From the IMG/VR virus record IMGVR_UViG_3300022749_000015, positions 1-20,415 of that record: a DNA stretch of 20,415 bases; one strand, written 5' to 3'. Under the pieces are notes generated by a model, which saw only the letters and a list, made by a program, of their open reading frames with translations, was not told where the DNA came from and searched no databases. A program made the translations under genes and the position numbers. Positions 3,997-10,329 of this stretch are shown here, piece after piece. This DNA comes from a virus. Within the stretch, counting starts at the first letter, position 1. Each line of letters starts with the position of its first letter.

Positions 3997-4127
3997 AGCT
4001 CGCGCTGATCTACCGGACCAGCGAAAAAAGAATGCTGGGCGAGAGCGACGCCTACATCGCCTTCCTGCTGGAGCACACGCCCGACGTGCTCGACGACCTG
4101 ATCGAGGCGAACCTCTATGGCCGATGA
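3634..4127 (+). CDS. Tail assembly chaperone, long -1 frameshift fusion (gp41/gp42-like)
   Basis: A -1 slip in 3948-3957 joins the first 108 residues of the short chaperone to a 56-residue extension (SGFF then HAGAADAG) ending at TGA 4125-4127, 164 residues in all. The extension has protein-like composition: LKLALIYRTSEKRMLGESD and YIAFLLEHTPDVLDDLIEAN. Its frame opens only at 3903, just after a TGA, and has no ATG before 4032, so independent initiation is unlikely. In lambda, P2, Mu and many other tailed phages the long form is made in small amounts and is essential for tail length control. The extension overlaps the tape measure start at 4117. Confidence 0.82.
3948..3957 (+). promoter_or_regulatory. 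Programmed -1 ribosomal frameshift site
   Basis: Two overlapping canonical slippery heptamers occur in the zero frame: G GGT TTT at 3948-3954 and T TTT TTC at 3951-3957. A slip on either gives the same fusion protein. The site lies 39 bases before the short-form stop, as in other tail chaperone genes. No downstream pseudoknot was worked out. Confidence 0.82.
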
Positions 4128-6678
4128 AACCCTGCGCATGCAGGCCGAGGTCGTGGATCGGTTCTCCGGTCCGCTGAAGGCTCTGCGCGCGCACCTGCTC
4201 GACGCCGGCCGGGAAGGCGCGGCTCATGGCGAGATCCTGGCGAAGGGCGTCGGCAAGGCAGAGGCGGCCCTTCAGACGACCGCTAAGACGGCGCAGACGG
4301 TGCTGAATCCGGCGCTCGCAGCCCTCGGCGTGACCGGCCTCGGTGCTGGCGTCGCTGTAGCGGGCATCGCGAGCGCGCTGAACGGCCTCACGGGCAACCT
4401 GTCGACGCTCGGGCAGCTCTCCCGGGAAACCGGCATGGCTGCGGATCAGCTGCGGGTCTTCCAGTCCGTGGCCGGAAAGTTCGGGATCTCCAGCGACGCG
4501 TCTGCTGCGGCGGCGAAGACCTTTTCGGAGAACATGCGCGACATCCGCCGCGGCGTCGGCGACGTATCGGGCTTCCTGCAGTCGCAGAACCCGATCATCG
4601 CGCAGTACTATCAGCGGCTGCGCGGCACGAAGGACAACGACCAGGCCAACAAGATCGCCGAGGAGATGCTGGAGCATGTCCCGAACGCGATCGACCGCGG
4701 CCGGCTTGCTGCGCGGATCTACGGCAACTCTGACCTCGGCCGCCTGGGGGACCAGCACCTCGGCCCGATCTCCGGTCTGAACAAGAAGGCCGAGGAAAAG
4801 CTCGGCCCGCTGCCCGAGGGCGCAGTCGAGAGCGCCGAGCGGTACGAGCGTGCCATCGGCAATTTGCGCTCCTCGATGCAGAAGGTCGGCACGACGATCG
4901 CCCTTGAGCTGATCGGACCGGCCGAGCGGTTCACGTCGTGGATCGAGGATATCGTGTCGGACAAGCGCAAGGAGGGCATCGACGCCCTGCGCAGCGGCAT
5001 GCGGGACATCGGGGCGGAGCTCGGGAAGATCGACTGGAAGACCGCCGGCGAGTCCGCGAAGGACATGCTGGTCAACACCACCTCGCTCGTCGGCACCTTG
5101 GCCAAGGGCCTGAAGGATGTGGTGGACACCGTCCGCTACCTGCGCCAGGGCGAGTACATGCAGGCGCTGCGCGGTGCCGACGGCGCCTCCGGCTCGCTCG
5201 CGCGCAAGCTGGCGCCCCGCGTCGGCGATGACGAGATCGACGCCCGCGAGAACGTCGAGCGGCTGACCAAGCTGCGCGATGTGGCGAAGGAGGCATCGGA
5301 GCACCTGATCGGCCGCACGCAACAGCGTATGGGCCTGCTCGACAGCCCCGAAGGGGCGCAGCAGAAGCTGACGGCGGCCGAGGACGAGCTGAAGCGCCTC
5401 CAGGCACGCACGCCCGAGCAGCGGCAGAAGGACTTCGAGGCGAGCGACAAGCTGCGGCGCTCGATCGACAGCCTGACCGACGAGATGAAGGCGAAGCGCG
5501 GCGACGCGACTGCGCAGAAGTCATCTGCCGAGGGCGAGGGCCCGTTTGGCGGTGCCAGGATCCAGAGCGCGGCTTTCGGTGGCGGCGGTGGCGGCTTTAG
5601 CCGGATGCCGACCATTGGTGGCGGAGCGAACCTTCCGGGGAGAGGCTCCGGACCTGGCTACTCGGGGGAGCAGGGTGAGCGCAACGCGATGCGCGAGCGC
5701 TTCCGGGAACACCTGAAGCGAACTGTGCCGGGCTACGACGGCGGCGATACCGTGCCGGTCGCGCCAGGTGGGCGGGTGCCGCCGATGCCTGGGATGAGCC
5801 CGCGACCGTCAGGTATCGGCAGTGAGGATACTGACGCGCCGAGCGCCCCCGGCACCTATCGGCCGCAACGCAAACTGACCGAACGCGACCTCGACGACGA
5901 GACCGTCAGGACTATCGCGGGCGAAGCTCGGCTCGGATCGCCGGGCGGTGTCGACGCTGTCATCAACAACATGTTCAATCGCCTCGGCACGAAGGGGTGG
6001 GGTCCGAGCAAAGATCTCCATGATGTGGCTCGCGCGCCGGGGCAGTATGAGGGCTACAATCGGCGCGTGACCGCCGCACAGGCAGAGCAAATCCGTTCTC
6101 GCATCCGCGCCATCGCCTCGGGCGGCGTGCCGGACAATACGCAGGGCTCGAATAGTTTTCGTGCGAGCTGGTATCGAGGCCCCTGGTGGAAGCGCATCGG
6201 CCGCTTCGGTCGCGACGTCGGCGGCAATACCTTTGGGTTTGATCCGGGCATCCCAAACGGACCCTATGGCTCCTACAAGGAAGGCCAGAGCGCGCGTCTG
6301 CCGAGTGCACAGGAAGGTGATTTCCTTCCGAATGGTGCGCCGCGCGTGCTCAAGCCGAACAGCATGAAGGATGCCCCTGGCGTCACAATGGACGAGGCAG
6401 CCGCAGGGCGCGCGGGTCGGGCTGACGGTGAGGGGTGGGCGGCCCGAGAGAAGGCGCGCAAAGAATTTGAGGCCAAGATCCAGCAGGGCGAGGGCCGGCT
6501 TGACCGGTCAGCCGGCCGAGCGGGCGTGCTCGGCGGCCAGAGGCTGGAGGCGAACGGCTCTGTTAGTGTCGTTGTTCAGAAGCCTGGGCCCGAGACACAG
6601 GTTCGAACTTCGACAGCAGGCAACCTTTTCAAGGACGTTGTGCTGAGACGGGGCCGGCCAATGGCGGGCGCCGACTAG
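4117..6678 (+). CDS. Tail tape measure protein with C-terminal cell-wall-hydrolase-like domain
   Basis: This 853-residue protein starts at ATG 4117 inside the chaperone extension. Residues 1-60 are helical with basic and acidic heptads, about 60-95 form a glycine/alanine-rich hydrophobic segment, and 100-480 are mostly helical (LSRETGMAADQLRVFQSV, then KRKEGIDALRSGMRDIGAE and coiled-coil-like KL-AAEDELKRLQ). A glycine-rich linker (about 487-590) leads to a domain at about 589-712 that resembles the SleB/Hydrolase_2 fold: RTIAGEARLGSPGG-DAVINNMFNRL, then VARAPGQYEGYN. E603 of AGEA is the candidate catalytic acid. The tape measure sets tail length; a peptidoglycan-cleaving tail end would help DNA entry. 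The hydrolase call is pattern-based. Confidence 0.87.
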   Translation: MADETLRMQAEVVDRFSGPLKALRAHLLDAGREGAAHGEILAKGVGKAEAALQTTAKTAQTVLNPALAALGVTGLGAGVAVAGIASALNGLTGNLSTLGQLSRETGMAADQLRVFQSVAGKFGISSDASAAAAKTFSENMRDIRRGVGDVSGFLQSQNPIIAQYYQRLRGTKDNDQANKIAEEMLEHVPNAIDRGRLAARIYGNSDLGRLGDQHLGPISGLNKKAEEKLGPLPEGAVESAERYERAIGNLRSSMQKVGTTIALELIGPAERFTSWIEDIVSDKRKEGIDALRSGMRDIGAELGKIDWKTAGESAKDMLVNTTSLVGTLAKGLKDVVDTVRYLRQGEYMQALRGADGASGSLARKLAPRVGDDEIDARENVERLTKLRDVAKEASEHLIGRTQQRMGLLDSPEGAQQKLTAAEDELKRLQARTPEQRQKDFEASDKLRRSIDSLTDEMKAKRGDATAQKSSAEGEGPFGGARIQSAAFGGGGGGFSRMPTIGGGANLPGRGSGPGYSGEQGERNAMRERFREHLKRTVPGYDGGDTVPVAPGGRVPPMPGMSPRPSGIGSEDTDAPSAPGTYRPQRKLTERDLDDETVRTIAGEARLGSPGGVDAVINNMFNRLGTKGWGPSKDLHDVARAPGQYEGYNRRVTAAQAEQIRSRIRAIASGGVPDNTQGSNSFRASWYRGPWWKRIGRFGRDVGGNTFGFDPGIPNGPYGSYKEGQSARLPSAQEGDFLPNGAPRVLKPNSMKDAPGVTMDEAAAGRAGRADGEGWAAREKARKEFEAKIQQGEGRLDRSAGRAGVLGGQRLEANGSVSVVVQKPGPETQVRTSTAGNLFKDVVLRRGRPMAGAD

Positions 6679-6998
6679 CGTCGATCACGGCAGATTGGAA
6701 TGCGCGGCCGCGCCTTGCAGTACTGGTCGGCCGCGCCAACGCTGGACCCGAAGCCGACGATGTCGGAAGGGCGATCACCGAGGCACGAGAGGGCAAGCCG
6801 GAGCTTGCCCACGTCATCGGAGTTCTTCCCGCTCTCCAGCAGGCCCCACATGTAGATAGCCTCCTCGTCCTGGGACGAAGCCCATTGCTGGCAGGTCTGC
6901 AGGTTACGGGCTGCCGGCATCTCGGTGAGCCTTGGCATCGTCGCTTGAGCCTCATCGGCAACGACGACGAGAACGAGGGCGGCGAGGAGCGTGCGCAT
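6675..6998 (-). CDS. Small exported protein of unknown function (moron candidate)
   Basis: This 107-residue minus-strand protein starts at ATG 6998. The first 19 residues form a Sec signal peptide (MRTLLAALVLVVVADEAQA, predicted cleavage after AQA). The mature part has four cysteines (LQTCQQW, LSCLGD, QYCKA, IPICRD), suggesting two periplasmic disulfides, and a central DEEAIYMWGLLESG segment. I do not recognise the family. An upstream in-frame ATG at 7253 would give 192 residues, but that extension is arginine-rich, has no signal peptide at its start and crosses predicted hairpins. It is the only convincing minus-strand gene. Its stop shares CTAG with the tape measure stop. Exclusion or host-envelope modification is possible but unproven. 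Confidence 0.62.
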   Translation of the reverse strand: MRTLLAALVLVVVADEAQATMPRLTEMPAARNLQTCQQWASSQDEEAIYMWGLLESGKNSDDVGKLRLALSCLGDRPSDIVGFGSSVGAADQYCKARPRIPICRDRR

Positions 6999-7005
6999 GG
7001 CCGGC

Positions 7006-7033
7006 AAGGTAGCTGTCGCGCGTAGGTTGTCGA
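7006..7033 (-). promoter_or_regulatory. Possible promoter of the exported-protein gene
   Basis: Reading the minus strand, TCGACA (7033-7028) resembles a -35 box. It is followed after 16 bases by TACCTT (7011-7006), a weak -10 box. The predicted transcript would begin at or next to the ATG at 6998, which fits the lack of a Shine-Dalgarno sequence there (leaderless translation). The -10 match is poor, so this is tentative. Confidence 0.25.
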
Positions 7034-7034
7034 G

Positions 7035-7065
7035 TGGAACGGACCTGGAACGGAATTGGAAACCC
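7035..7065. repeat. Tandem 11-base-period direct repeats
   Basis: TGGAACGGA occurs at 7035-7043 and 7046-7054, and a degenerate third copy (TGGAAACCC) begins at 7057. The period is 11 bases, about one helical turn, so a protein could bind the copies on one face of the DNA. The array lies directly upstream of the putative -35 box of the minus-strand gene. Confidence 0.5.
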
Positions 7066-7080
7066 TGTCGTGGGAAAGCG

Positions 7081-7114
7081 GGCACAACGAAGCCGCGCCG
7101 CTTGCGTTTGTGCC
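7081..7114. other. Hairpin 1 of the intergenic region
   Basis: GGCACAA (7081-7087) pairs with TTGTGCC (7108-7114). Inside, AAGC and GCTT continue the stem around a CGCGCC loop, with small bulges between. About 13 base pairs can form. No T-run follows on either strand, so it is not a standard terminator. Confidence 0.5.
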
Positions 7115-7182
7115 GAAATAGAACAGGCTTCTTAAGATCCTTTAACCGGGTCTCTGCCTGATCACGGTAAGATCTAAGAGTT

Positions 7183-7196
7183 CCTCCGCAAGGAGG
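7183..7196. other. Hairpin 2: short stem with GCAA tetraloop
   Basis: CCTCC (7183-7187) and GGAGG (7192-7196) enclose GCAA, a GNRA-type tetraloop, which is unusually stable and often a docking element in structured RNA (plus-strand sense). The GGAGG arm also looks like a ribosome site, but no start codon lies at a suitable distance. Confidence 0.5.
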
Positions 7197-7198
7197 TC

Positions 7199-7239
7199 GG
7201 CGGTGGGGCGCAGGCCCTAGGAAGCTCAGCCCCACCGCC
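7199..7239. other. Hairpin 3: perfect 11-base-pair inverted repeat
   Basis: GGCGGTGGGGC (7199-7209) is the exact reverse complement of GCCCCACCGCC (7229-7239), with a 19-base loop containing the palindrome CCTAGG. It begins two bases after hairpin 2. It could be a regulator site in DNA or a strong RNA stem in the leader of the rha transcript. No T-run follows. Confidence 0.6.
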
Positions 7240-7247
7240 CGTTCGCC

Positions 7248-7269
7248 GCCCACGGTTCCAGCCGCGGGC
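7248..7269. other. Hairpin 4
   Basis: GCCCACGG (7248-7255) pairs with CCGCGGGC (7262-7269) with one A-C mismatch around a 6-base loop. It ends 18 bases before the TGAGG ribosome site of the rha gene, so folding could affect access to that site. Confidence 0.4.
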
Positions 7270-7298
7270 TACTTCCCAATCGATGATGAGGCCACCGA

Positions 7299-8003
7299 AT
7301 GAGCGACGACACCTATAGCACGTCAGGCGTGAACGCGCCCTCAACGATCCCGCTCACCATGTCGAGCCTGGAGATCGCAGGTCTGACGGGCAAGCGGCAC
7401 GATCACGTGCTGCGTGACGCCGACAAGATGCTCGACGAGCTTGGAGTTGACCGCCCCAAATTTGGGGGCGTCTACCTCGCGGGGAACGGGGAGGAGCGTC
7501 GCTGCCTCAACCTTCCGCGCCGAGAATGCCTGATCCTTGTGTCCGGCTACTCCGTGCGAATGCGAGCGGCAATCATCGACCGCTGGCAGGCCCTCGAGGC
7601 GGCGCTGGTCCAGCCGGTAGATGCCTTCGACATGAGGGCGGTAGGCGGCATGGTGAAGGGCATCCTCGCCAAGCAGTTGCATGAGATCGTGCCGAGCCTT
7701 GTGGCGGCCGAGATCGCCACCCAAACACTCACCATCAGGCGCGGCAAGACCGCTGGCCAGATCTGGAAAGAGGCCGGCTTTCCACCGATCCGCATCGGTG
7801 GCTGGTTCAGCCGTAAGCTACTGGAGATGGGCTGCGCGATTGAGGGCGGCGGTTGCGGCGAACTCGGCCTCACTACCGCCCGCCTCTTCGATCCCGACCG
7901 CTCCGCCGCGTGGCTGCGAAATGGTGGCCGTATGATGGTCGAGCGGAAGCTCGCCGAGCGGATGGGCCAGGGCAATCTGAAACTCGTGCGCCCGGCCGCC
8001 TGA
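7299..8003 (+). CDS. rha: Rha family phage regulatory protein
   Basis: This 234-residue protein starts at ATG 7299 with TGAGG at 7287-7291. Residues about 22-105 carry the Rha signature: SLEIAGLTGKRHDHVLRD with helix-turn-helix character, a PKFGG-Y segment, NLPRRECLILVSGYSV and IIDRWQALE. The C-terminal 110 residues (AGQIWKEAGFPPIRIGGWF, AAWLRNGGRMMVERKL) form a separate domain, perhaps a second DNA- or partner-binding unit. Rha proteins in P22-type and related phages are regulators; some block growth in hosts lacking integration host factor. They normally sit in early or regulatory regions, so a place between tape measure and gpN is odd. Its stop is six bases before a strong AGGAGG for the next gene. 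Confidence 0.82.
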   Translation: MSDDTYSTSGVNAPSTIPLTMSSLEIAGLTGKRHDHVLRDADKMLDELGVDRPKFGGVYLAGNGEERRCLNLPRRECLILVSGYSVRMRAAIIDRWQALEAALVQPVDAFDMRAVGGMVKGILAKQLHEIVPSLVAAEIATQTLTIRRGKTAGQIWKEAGFPPIRIGGWFSRKLLEMGCAIEGGGCGELGLTTARLFDPDRSAAWLRNGGRMMVERKLAERMGQGNLKLVRPAA

Positions 8004-8019
8004 AGTCCAGGAGGTCCGA

Positions 8020-8538
8020 ATGGCTGACAGCCCTTGGCGCGCTCGCCTACGCCCCGCATCGTTTCGCGGAGCAGGCTTCCATGTTGAAGTCGGGGCGCGA
8101 ACTGCAGGCCGGCGCCTCGCCCTGCACGAGTACCCGAAGCGCGACACGCCCTATGCCGAGGACCTCGGCCGACGGGGCATGTCGTTCCCGATCACCGGGT
8201 ACTGCATCGGACCCTTTTACCTCGACGACCGCGACGCGCTCCTCGATGCCCTTGATGCGGAGGGATCCGGCACCCTGGTGCATCCGACCCTGGGTGAATT
8301 TCTGGTCAAGGCCGGCCCGTGTGCCGCCCAGGAGCGACGCGAGCGCGGCGGCTATGTCGAGTTTGAGATGCAGTTCGTCGAGGCCGGCGAGGATGACGCC
8401 TTCGACGTGCAGGACGACACGCAGGCGATGACGCGGACCCAGGCTGCCGACGCCGGGCAGGCCGCCGCTTCGGGTGGCGATGCCCAGTTGGCCAAAGAGA
8501 ATGAGGCCCTGAACCGGGCCATAGCTGCGGGTGCCTGA
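8020..8538 (+). CDS. DNA circularization protein, N-terminal part (Mu gpN-like, split)
   Basis: This 172-residue protein starts at ATG 8020 behind AGGAGG at 8009-8014. It matches the DNA_circ_N domain: WRARLRPASFRGAGFHVEVG, the HEYPKRDTPYAEDLGR signature, then FPITGYCIG and GTLVHPTLGE. The last 45 residues are a polar Ala/Gln/Asp linker. In Mu the protein continues in one chain of nearly 500 residues that works at the tail tip or baseplate. Here the frame is closed by TGA 8536-8538, and the missing half follows in the same frame from ATG 8539. The product may be a free domain, or a longer chain may arise by UGA readthrough. Confidence 0.8.
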   Translation: MADSPWRARLRPASFRGAGFHVEVGARTAGRRLALHEYPKRDTPYAEDLGRRGMSFPITGYCIGPFYLDDRDALLDALDAEGSGTLVHPTLGEFLVKAGPCAAQERRERGGYVEFEMQFVEAGEDDAFDVQDDTQAMTRTQAADAGQAAASGGDAQLAKENEALNRAIAAGA

Positions 8539-9213
8539 ATGAGCCTTCGCCGCGACCAAGCCGCTCTGGACCTGATCGGCGCCATTCTGGATGCCATCCT
8601 GGCTTTCTCGGGCGCAGACGATCTCGGCACCGTTGGCGCGGATCTTGAGGCCGCTGTCGGCGACCTGCGGGCCTCGGCGCCACGATTGCTCCGTCACGGC
8701 GGCCTGCATGCGCAGTTGCTGACCTGCTTCGATCTCGCCCGGCAGACGGGCATGACGTTCGATACTGTGGAGCGCCTGAGAAAGACGGTCGCGTCGCTCG
8801 GCCCGGCAGATGCCCGTTCCATCGTCCTGCAAACCTACAGCGTCGCCTTCTGCTGCATCCAGGAAGCGGCGGTCGTCGCGGACACGGCTTTTACCAGCCG
8901 AGATGAGGTCGACCGCGTGACCGGTCTTCTGGCGGCCGCGTTCAGCGCCTCCCAGGACGCGATGGCGACGAACGGAGATGCCGCCACGTATCGTGCGCTG
9001 GTGAGCCTGCGCGCCGCTGCCGTGCGGGATCTGACCGATCGAGCCCGGCCGCTGCCGCAGCTCGTCACCTACGTGGAGGCCGTCAGCTTCTCGTCGCTCG
9101 TTCTCGCGCAGCGCCGCTACGGCGACGCCAGCCGAGCCGACGAGATCGTCGCGGAGAACGAAGTCGTGCACCCGCTCTTCATGCCGCTGACCGGCCGCGT
9201 GCTCTCGGCCTGA
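8539..9213 (+). CDS. DNA circularization protein, C-terminal part (Mu gpN-like, split)
   Basis: This 224-residue helical protein starts at ATG 8539, directly after the TGA of the N-terminal part and in its frame. The ending SFSSLVLAQRRYGDASRADEIVAENEVVHPLFMPLTG closely follows the C-terminus of gpN proteins (SLVLA-R-YGDA-RADEIV-N---HP-F-P). The middle is a set of helices with alanine-rich faces. No clear Shine-Dalgarno sequence precedes the ATG, so translation probably depends on termination-reinitiation at TGA-ATG. Together the two parts total 396 residues. Confidence 0.75.
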   Translation: MSLRRDQAALDLIGAILDAILAFSGADDLGTVGADLEAAVGDLRASAPRLLRHGGLHAQLLTCFDLARQTGMTFDTVERLRKTVASLGPADARSIVLQTYSVAFCCIQEAAVVADTAFTSRDEVDRVTGLLAAAFSASQDAMATNGDAATYRALVSLRAAAVRDLTDRARPLPQLVTYVEAVSFSSLVLAQRRYGDASRADEIVAENEVVHPLFMPLTGRVLSA

Positions 9214-9216
9214 TCC

Positions 9217-10329
9217 ATGCCCAATCCAAAGGAACTCGCCTACATCCTGGTCAACGGGAAGCGCTACCTCAACTGGAAGACGATCTCGGTCAATCGAACC
9301 TTCCAGGCGTTCGCGAGCACCTCGACGTTCTCGGCCGCATCTCCGAACGAATCCGGCTTGTCGACGTGGGACGCGCTGCGCCTTCGCGTGGCGGATCAGG
9401 CGAAGATCTGGCTCGGCGGGAAGCTCGTCTCCAGCGGCACGATTTCAGCCCGTCAGCCGGCCTACAACGACAAGGAGCATGGGCTCCAAATTACCGTGCT
9501 CTCGAAGGTCTCGGACATCGTCAACTCGACGGTCGACCATGAGAAGGGCGAGTTCAAAGGCTACACGCTGAGCCAGATCGCCGGCGCAGTGCTTCAGCCC
9601 TACGGGATCAAGTTCCAGCTTCAGGGCAGCACCGAGGGCGCCGACAAGGTGTTCCCGAAGGTGAACGTCCAGGCCGGCGAGACGGTGTTCGCGTTCCTCG
9701 AGCGCCTCTGCCGATTCCGTAACATCTTCCTGCGCGATGACGAGAACGGGAACATCGTCGGCTTCCGCAGCGGCAATCAGGCGGCCATGGGCGCCGAGCT
9801 CGAACTCGGTCGGAACATCAAGGCCGGCTCACTGCTGATGTGCGACGAGAACGCGCTCAGCAAGATCGAAGCGATCGGCCAGCGACCCGGCAACGACCAG
9901 AACTTCGGAGATGCATCCCGAGACGTGAAGGCGACCGTCACGAACCCGGCGGTGACCCGCAACCGGCCCTTCAGCCTCATGGCCGAGATGCCCGGCGACA
10001 AGCAGGACATGCAGATGCGCGCCAGTCATGAGCTGGCGGAAAACTACGTCACCATGCTGTCCGGCAGCTACACGGTGCAGGGTTGGTTCAAGGACAAATC
10101 CACCCTGTGGCTGGAGATGATCGGCAAGACGATCACGGTCTACGACCCCTTCATGTTCCCAGACAATCGCATGCAGCTCGCGATCCAGGGCGTCACCAGT
10201 ACGCAAGGGCCCGAGGGCACCTTGTCGGTGCTGGACATGTGCCTGCCGCGCCGGCTCGGAGGCGGCGACAGGATCGAAGCGGGCGGTGCGCCTGGCCTGT
10301 ACGGGCCCGGCACCGGGCAGGCGGCCTGA
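9217..10329 (+). CDS. Baseplate hub protein (Mu gpP-like)
   Basis: This 370-residue protein, about the size of Mu gpP, starts at ATG 9217 three bases after the previous stop. Sequence features of the T4 gp27-like hub family are visible: ILVNGKRYLNWKTISVNRT at the start, KIWLGGKLVSSGTI, a central FPKVNVQAGETVFAFLERLCRFRNIFLRDDENGN segment and the C-terminal SYTVQGWFKDKSTLWLEMIGKTITVYDP stretch. It forms the trimeric hub connecting tube and spike. The last 30 residues are glycine-rich. Confidence 0.87.
   Translation: MPNPKELAYILVNGKRYLNWKTISVNRTFQAFASTSTFSAASPNESGLSTWDALRLRVADQAKIWLGGKLVSSGTISARQPAYNDKEHGLQITVLSKVSDIVNSTVDHEKGEFKGYTLSQIAGAVLQPYGIKFQLQGSTEGADKVFPKVNVQAGETVFAFLERLCRFRNIFLRDDENGNIVGFRSGNQAAMGAELELGRNIKAGSLLMCDENALSKIEAIGQRPGNDQNFGDASRDVKATVTNPAVTRNRPFSLMAEMPGDKQDMQMRASHELAENYVTMLSGSYTVQGWFKDKSTLWLEMIGKTITVYDPFMFPDNRMQLAIQGVTSTQGPEGTLSVLDMCLPRRLGGGDRIEAGGAPGLYGPGTGQAA

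Follow-up and report, generated by a model that had tools for sequence, protein, structure and literature searches.

What occupies the junction between the tape measure and gpN genes of a Mu-like tail module when the two genes are not adjacent, and do the contents form one unit or several? The question is raised by IMG/VR virus record IMGVR_UViG_3300022749_000015, which was analyzed as a complete record of 20,415 bases (the window). A first-pass annotation had noted that in Mu the gene for the tail tape measure protein (TMP) is followed directly by gpN. At this point in the window it placed a minus-strand gene for an exported protein with four cysteines, a structured 300-base intergenic region, and a gene for a Rha-family regulator, and it took these as a moron-like lysogenic-conversion unit. 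The likelier account is that two independent insertions occurred at the TMP-gpN junction, one a predicted SOS-controlled cassette of interchangeable exported proteins and the other a separate Rha gene.

The genes that border the junction had been named correctly, as matches to PHROG profiles and PF07157 indicate:

4117-6678, plus strand: TMP of 853 amino acids (aa), matching PHROG tape measure families (E 2e-15); left flank of the slot
8020-8538, plus strand: N-terminal half of gpN (DNA_circ_N; PF07157, E 1e-28); right flank of the slot
8539-9213, plus strand: C-terminal half of gpN as its own open reading frame (ORF), matching PHROG 184 at profile positions 273-401

The TMP and gpN genes are indeed adjacent in many relatives, with a gap of -1 to 25 nucleotides (nt), including Methylobacterium sp. 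J-030 (L065; L numbers denote the sequences compared), Faunimonas (L067), Bradyrhizobium (L069), and Pseudomonas and Gilliamella prophages. Other relatives carry differing cargo at the junction, typically a minus-strand gene for a small exported or membrane protein that runs into the TMP stop codon, and the closest relatives (gpN 83% identical) hold other exported genes in the slot. In a DNA comparison with L004, the matching sequence breaks off at 6665, some 11 bases short of the TMP stop codon, and picks up again precisely at the gpN ATG (8020). Since the interval between these two points holds different cargo in the closest relatives, the junction, as judged from these alignments, is a slot for replaceable accessory cargo. 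The same genes are not constant at this place in related prophages, a comparison that the first-pass annotation had proposed, and the variable slot makes the label "moron" a fair one. The G+C content is about 0.61-0.67 in the cassette, 0.64-0.71 in the TMP gene, and 0.61-0.70 downstream. Signal peptides of the window protein and of the exported proteins of relatives were assigned from hydrophobicity only. The cargo of the surveyed relatives includes the following:

L004-L007: exported proteins of 83 and 113 aa
L066 (Methylobacterium soli): a 129-aa protein and an HSDR_N protein
L136: a small exported cysteine-containing protein and, at 5823-6414 (reverse-complemented coordinates), a Gp49/HI1420-type toxin-antitoxin pair
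L135, L138, L139, and L141: a small exported or membrane protein
L143/L144: a small exported or membrane protein and a CHAP-like protein
L087 (6745-6954) and L093, minus strand: a small membrane protein, in Pseudomonas Mu-like prophages

The HSDR_N protein (type I restriction nuclease domain; L066:5836-6954, minus strand) is a candidate defence gene in the slot of the M. soli prophage. L135 and L136 are two prophages in one genome whose exported proteins have a near-identical signal peptide, ACLAPGAAGAAE, and unrelated mature parts, which suggests swaps of the mature part behind the signal sequence. The gpN of the window consists of two adjoining ORFs (8020-8538 and 8539-9213), with an ATG immediately after the stop codon; the split is also found in L004-L007 and L066, whereas other Mu-like relatives encode a single 400-aa protein.

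Upstream of the exported gene lies an element that had been overlooked, a GTTC-N7-GTTC box with a promoter (7006-7062, minus strand):

6675-6998, minus strand: exported four-cysteine protein P0001, 107 aa, cassette family F1, with homologues in L153, L106, and L112
7006-7011, minus strand: -10-like TACCTT, 7 nt before the ATG, from the promoter alignment
7029-7034, minus strand: -35-like CTCGAC, exactly 30 nt before the ATG; CTNGAC is invariant in 10 aligned promoters
7037-7051, minus strand: LexA/SOS box GTTCCAGGTCCGTTC, GTTC-N7-GTTC, an exact match to the alphaproteobacterial consensus
7048-7062, minus strand: overlapping box TTTC-N7-GTTC with one mismatch, which gives a third half-site 11 bp upstream

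Read on the minus strand, the region is GTTCCAGGTCCGTTCCACTCGAC, followed by 30 nt and the ATG. The box is 2 nt from the -35-like hexamer, and the 64 nt upstream of the start codon contain the whole promoter. GTTC-N7-GTTC is the published Caulobacter/alphaproteobacterial LexA (SOS) box (PMC9578287 Table 1; PMC12700426). It is rare, with 34 exact matches in 1.41 Mb and 0.44 expected per 20 kb. The recA promoters of related hosts have boxes that resemble it, an exact one in Bradyrhizobium and ones with a single mismatch in Methylobacterium and Faunimonas. The promoter of the exported gene carries a putative host LexA operator, and the exact operator abutting a predicted promoter is the arrangement expected of a LexA regulon member. 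Since the promoter has this operator sequence, expression upon DNA damage or prophage induction is suggested rather than steady expression in the lysogen; of the earlier proposal that the protein acts during lysogeny, leaky expression is the part that may stand. The mRNA may be leaderless, because the -10-like hexamer lies only 6-7 nt before the ATG.

That the box is read by some other phage or host regulator and not by LexA is unlikely. The LexA assignment comes from sequence matches only, and a second exact box in the window (9802-9816) lies within a tail gene, as chance predicts. This alternative has to contend with the exact published consensus, the placement of the box beside the -35, and the boxes at host recA promoters.

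The predicted SOS promoter recurs in other phages. When 2.9 million viral contigs were scanned, a 23-nt pattern was found in 10 contigs, 7 of which have a start codon at the predicted place, and the pattern with an ATGCG start was found in 11. A small exported ORF opens at the predicted start in 10 of the 11 (L155 breaks off shortly after the start). The element lies at the same distance from the ATG in the window, L004, L005, and L153 and one nt farther in L007, and the proteins behind it in L004, L005, and L153 have no similarity to the window's type or to each other's. L163, L167, and L169 were missed by protein searches, emerged from the scan, and carry a fourth protein family. Thus, four unrelated families stand directly behind the promoter, and eight are found in all when second genes are included. 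The ten aligned promoters agree fully in the two GTTC half-sites and in CTNGAC, differ in the seven bases between the half-sites, and have the -10-like hexamer 6-7 nt before the ATG. The promoter gave three matches, and no cassette, in 298 genomes of the family of M. soli, and the F2 protein was not found in 298 genomes of the same order; because the genome samples are limited, absence from genomes is weak evidence.

At its N terminus P0001 has a hydrophobic stretch (Kyte-Doolittle peak 3.06 over 12 residues) with an AxA-like site at 17-19, and its four cysteines are all C-terminal to this stretch, in agreement with the first description of the protein. All four cysteines are kept in three relatives at 60%, 51%, and 50% identity, and comparison with the nearest relative gives a synonymous divergence (dS) of 1.52 and a nonsynonymous divergence (dN) of 0.32. 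Because the relatives keep the cysteines and dN is low relative to dS, the 107-aa ORF is, by sequence comparison, a real gene under purifying selection. Low dN relative to dS was found in every exported family tested. A search of viral contigs with the single sequence gave no match, and a three-sequence alignment used as the query found L153; the profile search that had been proposed thus gave homologues and no known family above its cut-off. Two candidate domains, RskA_C (PF10099; 17 against a cut-off of 29.4 bits) and HdeA/HdeB (PF06411; 13.3 against 22 bits), were rejected as far below threshold. The structure model is a four-helix protein of moderate confidence (predicted local distance difference test, pLDDT, 72.6) and has no match in the PDB. 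P0001 was not found in plasmid and phage records, and its family is rare outside phages, with two copies in roughly 1,080 genome searches that covered the same family, order, and class. One copy is chromosomal, and the other is in a mobile region near resolvase and copper-resistance-like genes. In that region the P0001 relative (L113:7453-7830) overlaps another exported gene beside the resolvase.

The exported proteins could be SOS-induced antagonists released upon lysis in the manner of bacteriocins, with a conserved promoter and a fast-changing mature part. Colicins are usually under SOS control, and unrelated cysteine-containing mature parts do stand behind a conserved promoter and an ATGCG start. 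This explanation is quite unlikely, as there is no immunity gene beside the exported genes, no toxin family is matched, and the convergence with the TMP gene is left unexplained.

That convergence is the second recurrent feature of the SOS cassette. The cassette runs into the 3' end of the TMP gene, as in the window, in 9 of the 11 contigs, and the last cassette stop codon overlaps the TMP stop codon or sits a few to about a dozen bases away. In the window the two genes share the tetranucleotide CTAG, a 4-nt overlap of their stop codons. The cassettes that are convergent with TMP (in the window, L004-L007, L169, L153, L154, L159, and L163) span at least three tail types, namely the Mu-like gpN type, the L153/L154 type, and the L163 type. 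In L153 the 107-aa family of the window is the second gene, the adjoining TMP is only 22% identical over 232 aa to that of the window, and the A2 profile for gpN has no match in the record, which is consistent with a different tail type. The L155 contig ends before any TMP gene.

The same geometry invites the explanation that the minus-strand transcript is mainly an antisense RNA, which upon SOS induction would run into the TMP gene and delay or block either tail production or a superinfecting relative. The overlap of the stop codons favours it, as does the failure to find a terminator pattern in 6600-8100. There is also a precedent in prophage BTP1, in which the antisense RNA STnc6030 lies over structural genes and mediates superinfection exclusion (PMC7067206). 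The purifying selection on the reading frames and the retention of exported character across unrelated proteins make this explanation distinctly improbable.

The second insertion proposed here is the Rha gene, which lies beyond the cassette promoter:

7183-7239, strand not assigned: a pair of neighbouring hairpins (CCUCC/GGAGG and a GC stem of 11 bp), located between promoter and Rha gene; z -2.74, 2 of 200 shuffles as good
7299-8003, plus strand: Rha-domain regulator of 234 aa, with the Rha domain at residues 21-100, a helical linker, and a C-terminal predicted winged helix at about 147-224

The assignment to the Rha family holds (PF09669, E 3e-15; 56.8 bits against a cut-off of 29.9), and the score for NCBIfam TIGR02681 is below its cut-off (16.6 against 45.95 bits). 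The C-terminal domain has the conserved motifs GKTAGQIW and RLFDPD and is common to the KilA-N-type proteins of L002, L003, and L103, the BRO-like protein of L104, and the Rha protein of L100 (KilA-N was assigned by Pfam in L002 and L003, and KilA-N in L103 and the BRO-like N terminus in L104 by eye). It is modelled as a winged helix (pLDDT about 78-88) within a poor whole-protein model (predicted template modelling score 0.35) that has weak PDB matches only; a winged helix of the phage antirepressor type is a fair prediction. This domain, which has no Pfam family, is found fused to KilA-N, BRO-like, Rha, and other N termini (L002, L003, L103, L104, L105). The Rha homologue of L100 (2675-3376), in an early-type region, has an in-frame stop codon within its N-terminal domain. 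The window protein resembles Rha/KilA-N/BRO antirepressors in its Rha domain and shared C-terminal domain and differs from them in lying in a tail module and not in an early region.

No Rha gene was found in the slots of the surveyed relatives, and the promoter abuts gpN in L004-L007. For these reasons Rha looks like a later, independent insertion between the cassette promoter and gpN. Its target is probably the lysis-lysogeny switch rather than the cassette. The hairpins would have come with the Rha insertion; they have no T-run. The intergenic region as a whole was rejected as a functional RNA element (no Rfam match; z -1.19, 19 of 200 shuffles as good), so that of the structured region first described only the local hairpins stand. 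The exported gene and Rha are divergent neighbours with a common 300-nt intergenic region, but it is very improbable that they form one lysogenic-conversion unit in which Rha controls the exported gene, given that in relatives each is present where the other is absent. L153, which represents another phage type, has a member of the exported family but no Rha gene, and in L004-L007 and L169, which likewise lack Rha, the same promoter sits right beside gpN. The promoter is also compact, and it contains a host LexA operator sequence.

In the account of two independent insertions, host LexA would repress the cassette and DNA damage would release it, and the LexA-box promoter would then drive, probably from a leaderless mRNA, a small exported protein whose gene runs counter to the late operon up to the TMP stop codon. 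The protein would be made while the prophage may be undergoing induction, reach the periplasm, become disulfide-bonded, and alter the envelope of the producer cell in a way that bars injection or re-adsorption by other phages or by progeny. The Rha-domain regulator, inserted between the cassette promoter and gpN, would act on the lysis-lysogeny switch. The least certain part is the task of the cassette, for which superinfection exclusion or prevention of re-adsorption timed to induction is a tentative guess made by analogy. Ltp of TP-J34 and gp15 of HK97, both from temperate phages, are small proteins, exported or membrane-bound, with a link to TMP-dependent DNA injection (PMC3952083, PMC10883804). 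The window protein is like them in its predicted export (from a hydrophobic N terminus only) and unlike them in that no family is matched and the proteins here are predicted to be soluble periplasmic cysteine-containing proteins. Profile and structure searches revealed no recognisable homology of the exported protein to superinfection-exclusion families.

Several points weigh against this account. A match to the box is not in itself binding, and Methylobacterium, the nearest named relative, may not be the host. The SOS box is absent from the slot cargo of L066, L135, L136, L138, L139, and L143. In L167 the cassette is flanked by tail assembly chaperone and baseplate genes, and TMP was not recognised there. 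The exported families have no match above cut-off in Pfam, NCBIfam, or PADLOC and no confident fold. Lastly, the exported family does not track TMP type. A cognate pairing of exported protein and TMP was downgraded for this reason, the same family being found beside unrelated TMPs.

Among known systems, the morons of Mu-like phages in P. aeruginosa regions of genomic plasticity (PMC4378225) are likewise insertions of short ORFs, with their own promoter, between genes that are adjacent in relatives. The cassette also appears to have its own promoter, which is predicted, conserved, and at a fixed distance. It differs in that one SOS-box promoter serves interchangeable exported products, encoded on the strand opposite the late operon and in most cases next to the TMP end, across unrelated tail types and with no terminator found. 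The tum gene of coliphage 186 is a LexA-controlled prophage gene whose product is an antirepressor. The window gene resembles it in its putative host SOS control; the gene under the box here encodes an exported protein instead.

The broader reading is the more doubtful one, that temperate phages of alphaproteobacteria with unrelated tails share a portable SOS cassette lodged at the 3' end of TMP, with a fixed LexA promoter behind which one or two exported proteins are freely exchanged, and that these proteins may form a new, fast-diversifying class of induction-timed superinfection exclusion. The promoter pattern of about 58 nt is a sequence handle that predicts the starts of small unannotated exported phage proteins across a whole collection. 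If SOS control and the proposed function are true, it would define several unannotated protein families at a stroke and would tie host DNA damage to remodelling of the envelope by phages that do not need an SOS-sensitive repressor of their own.

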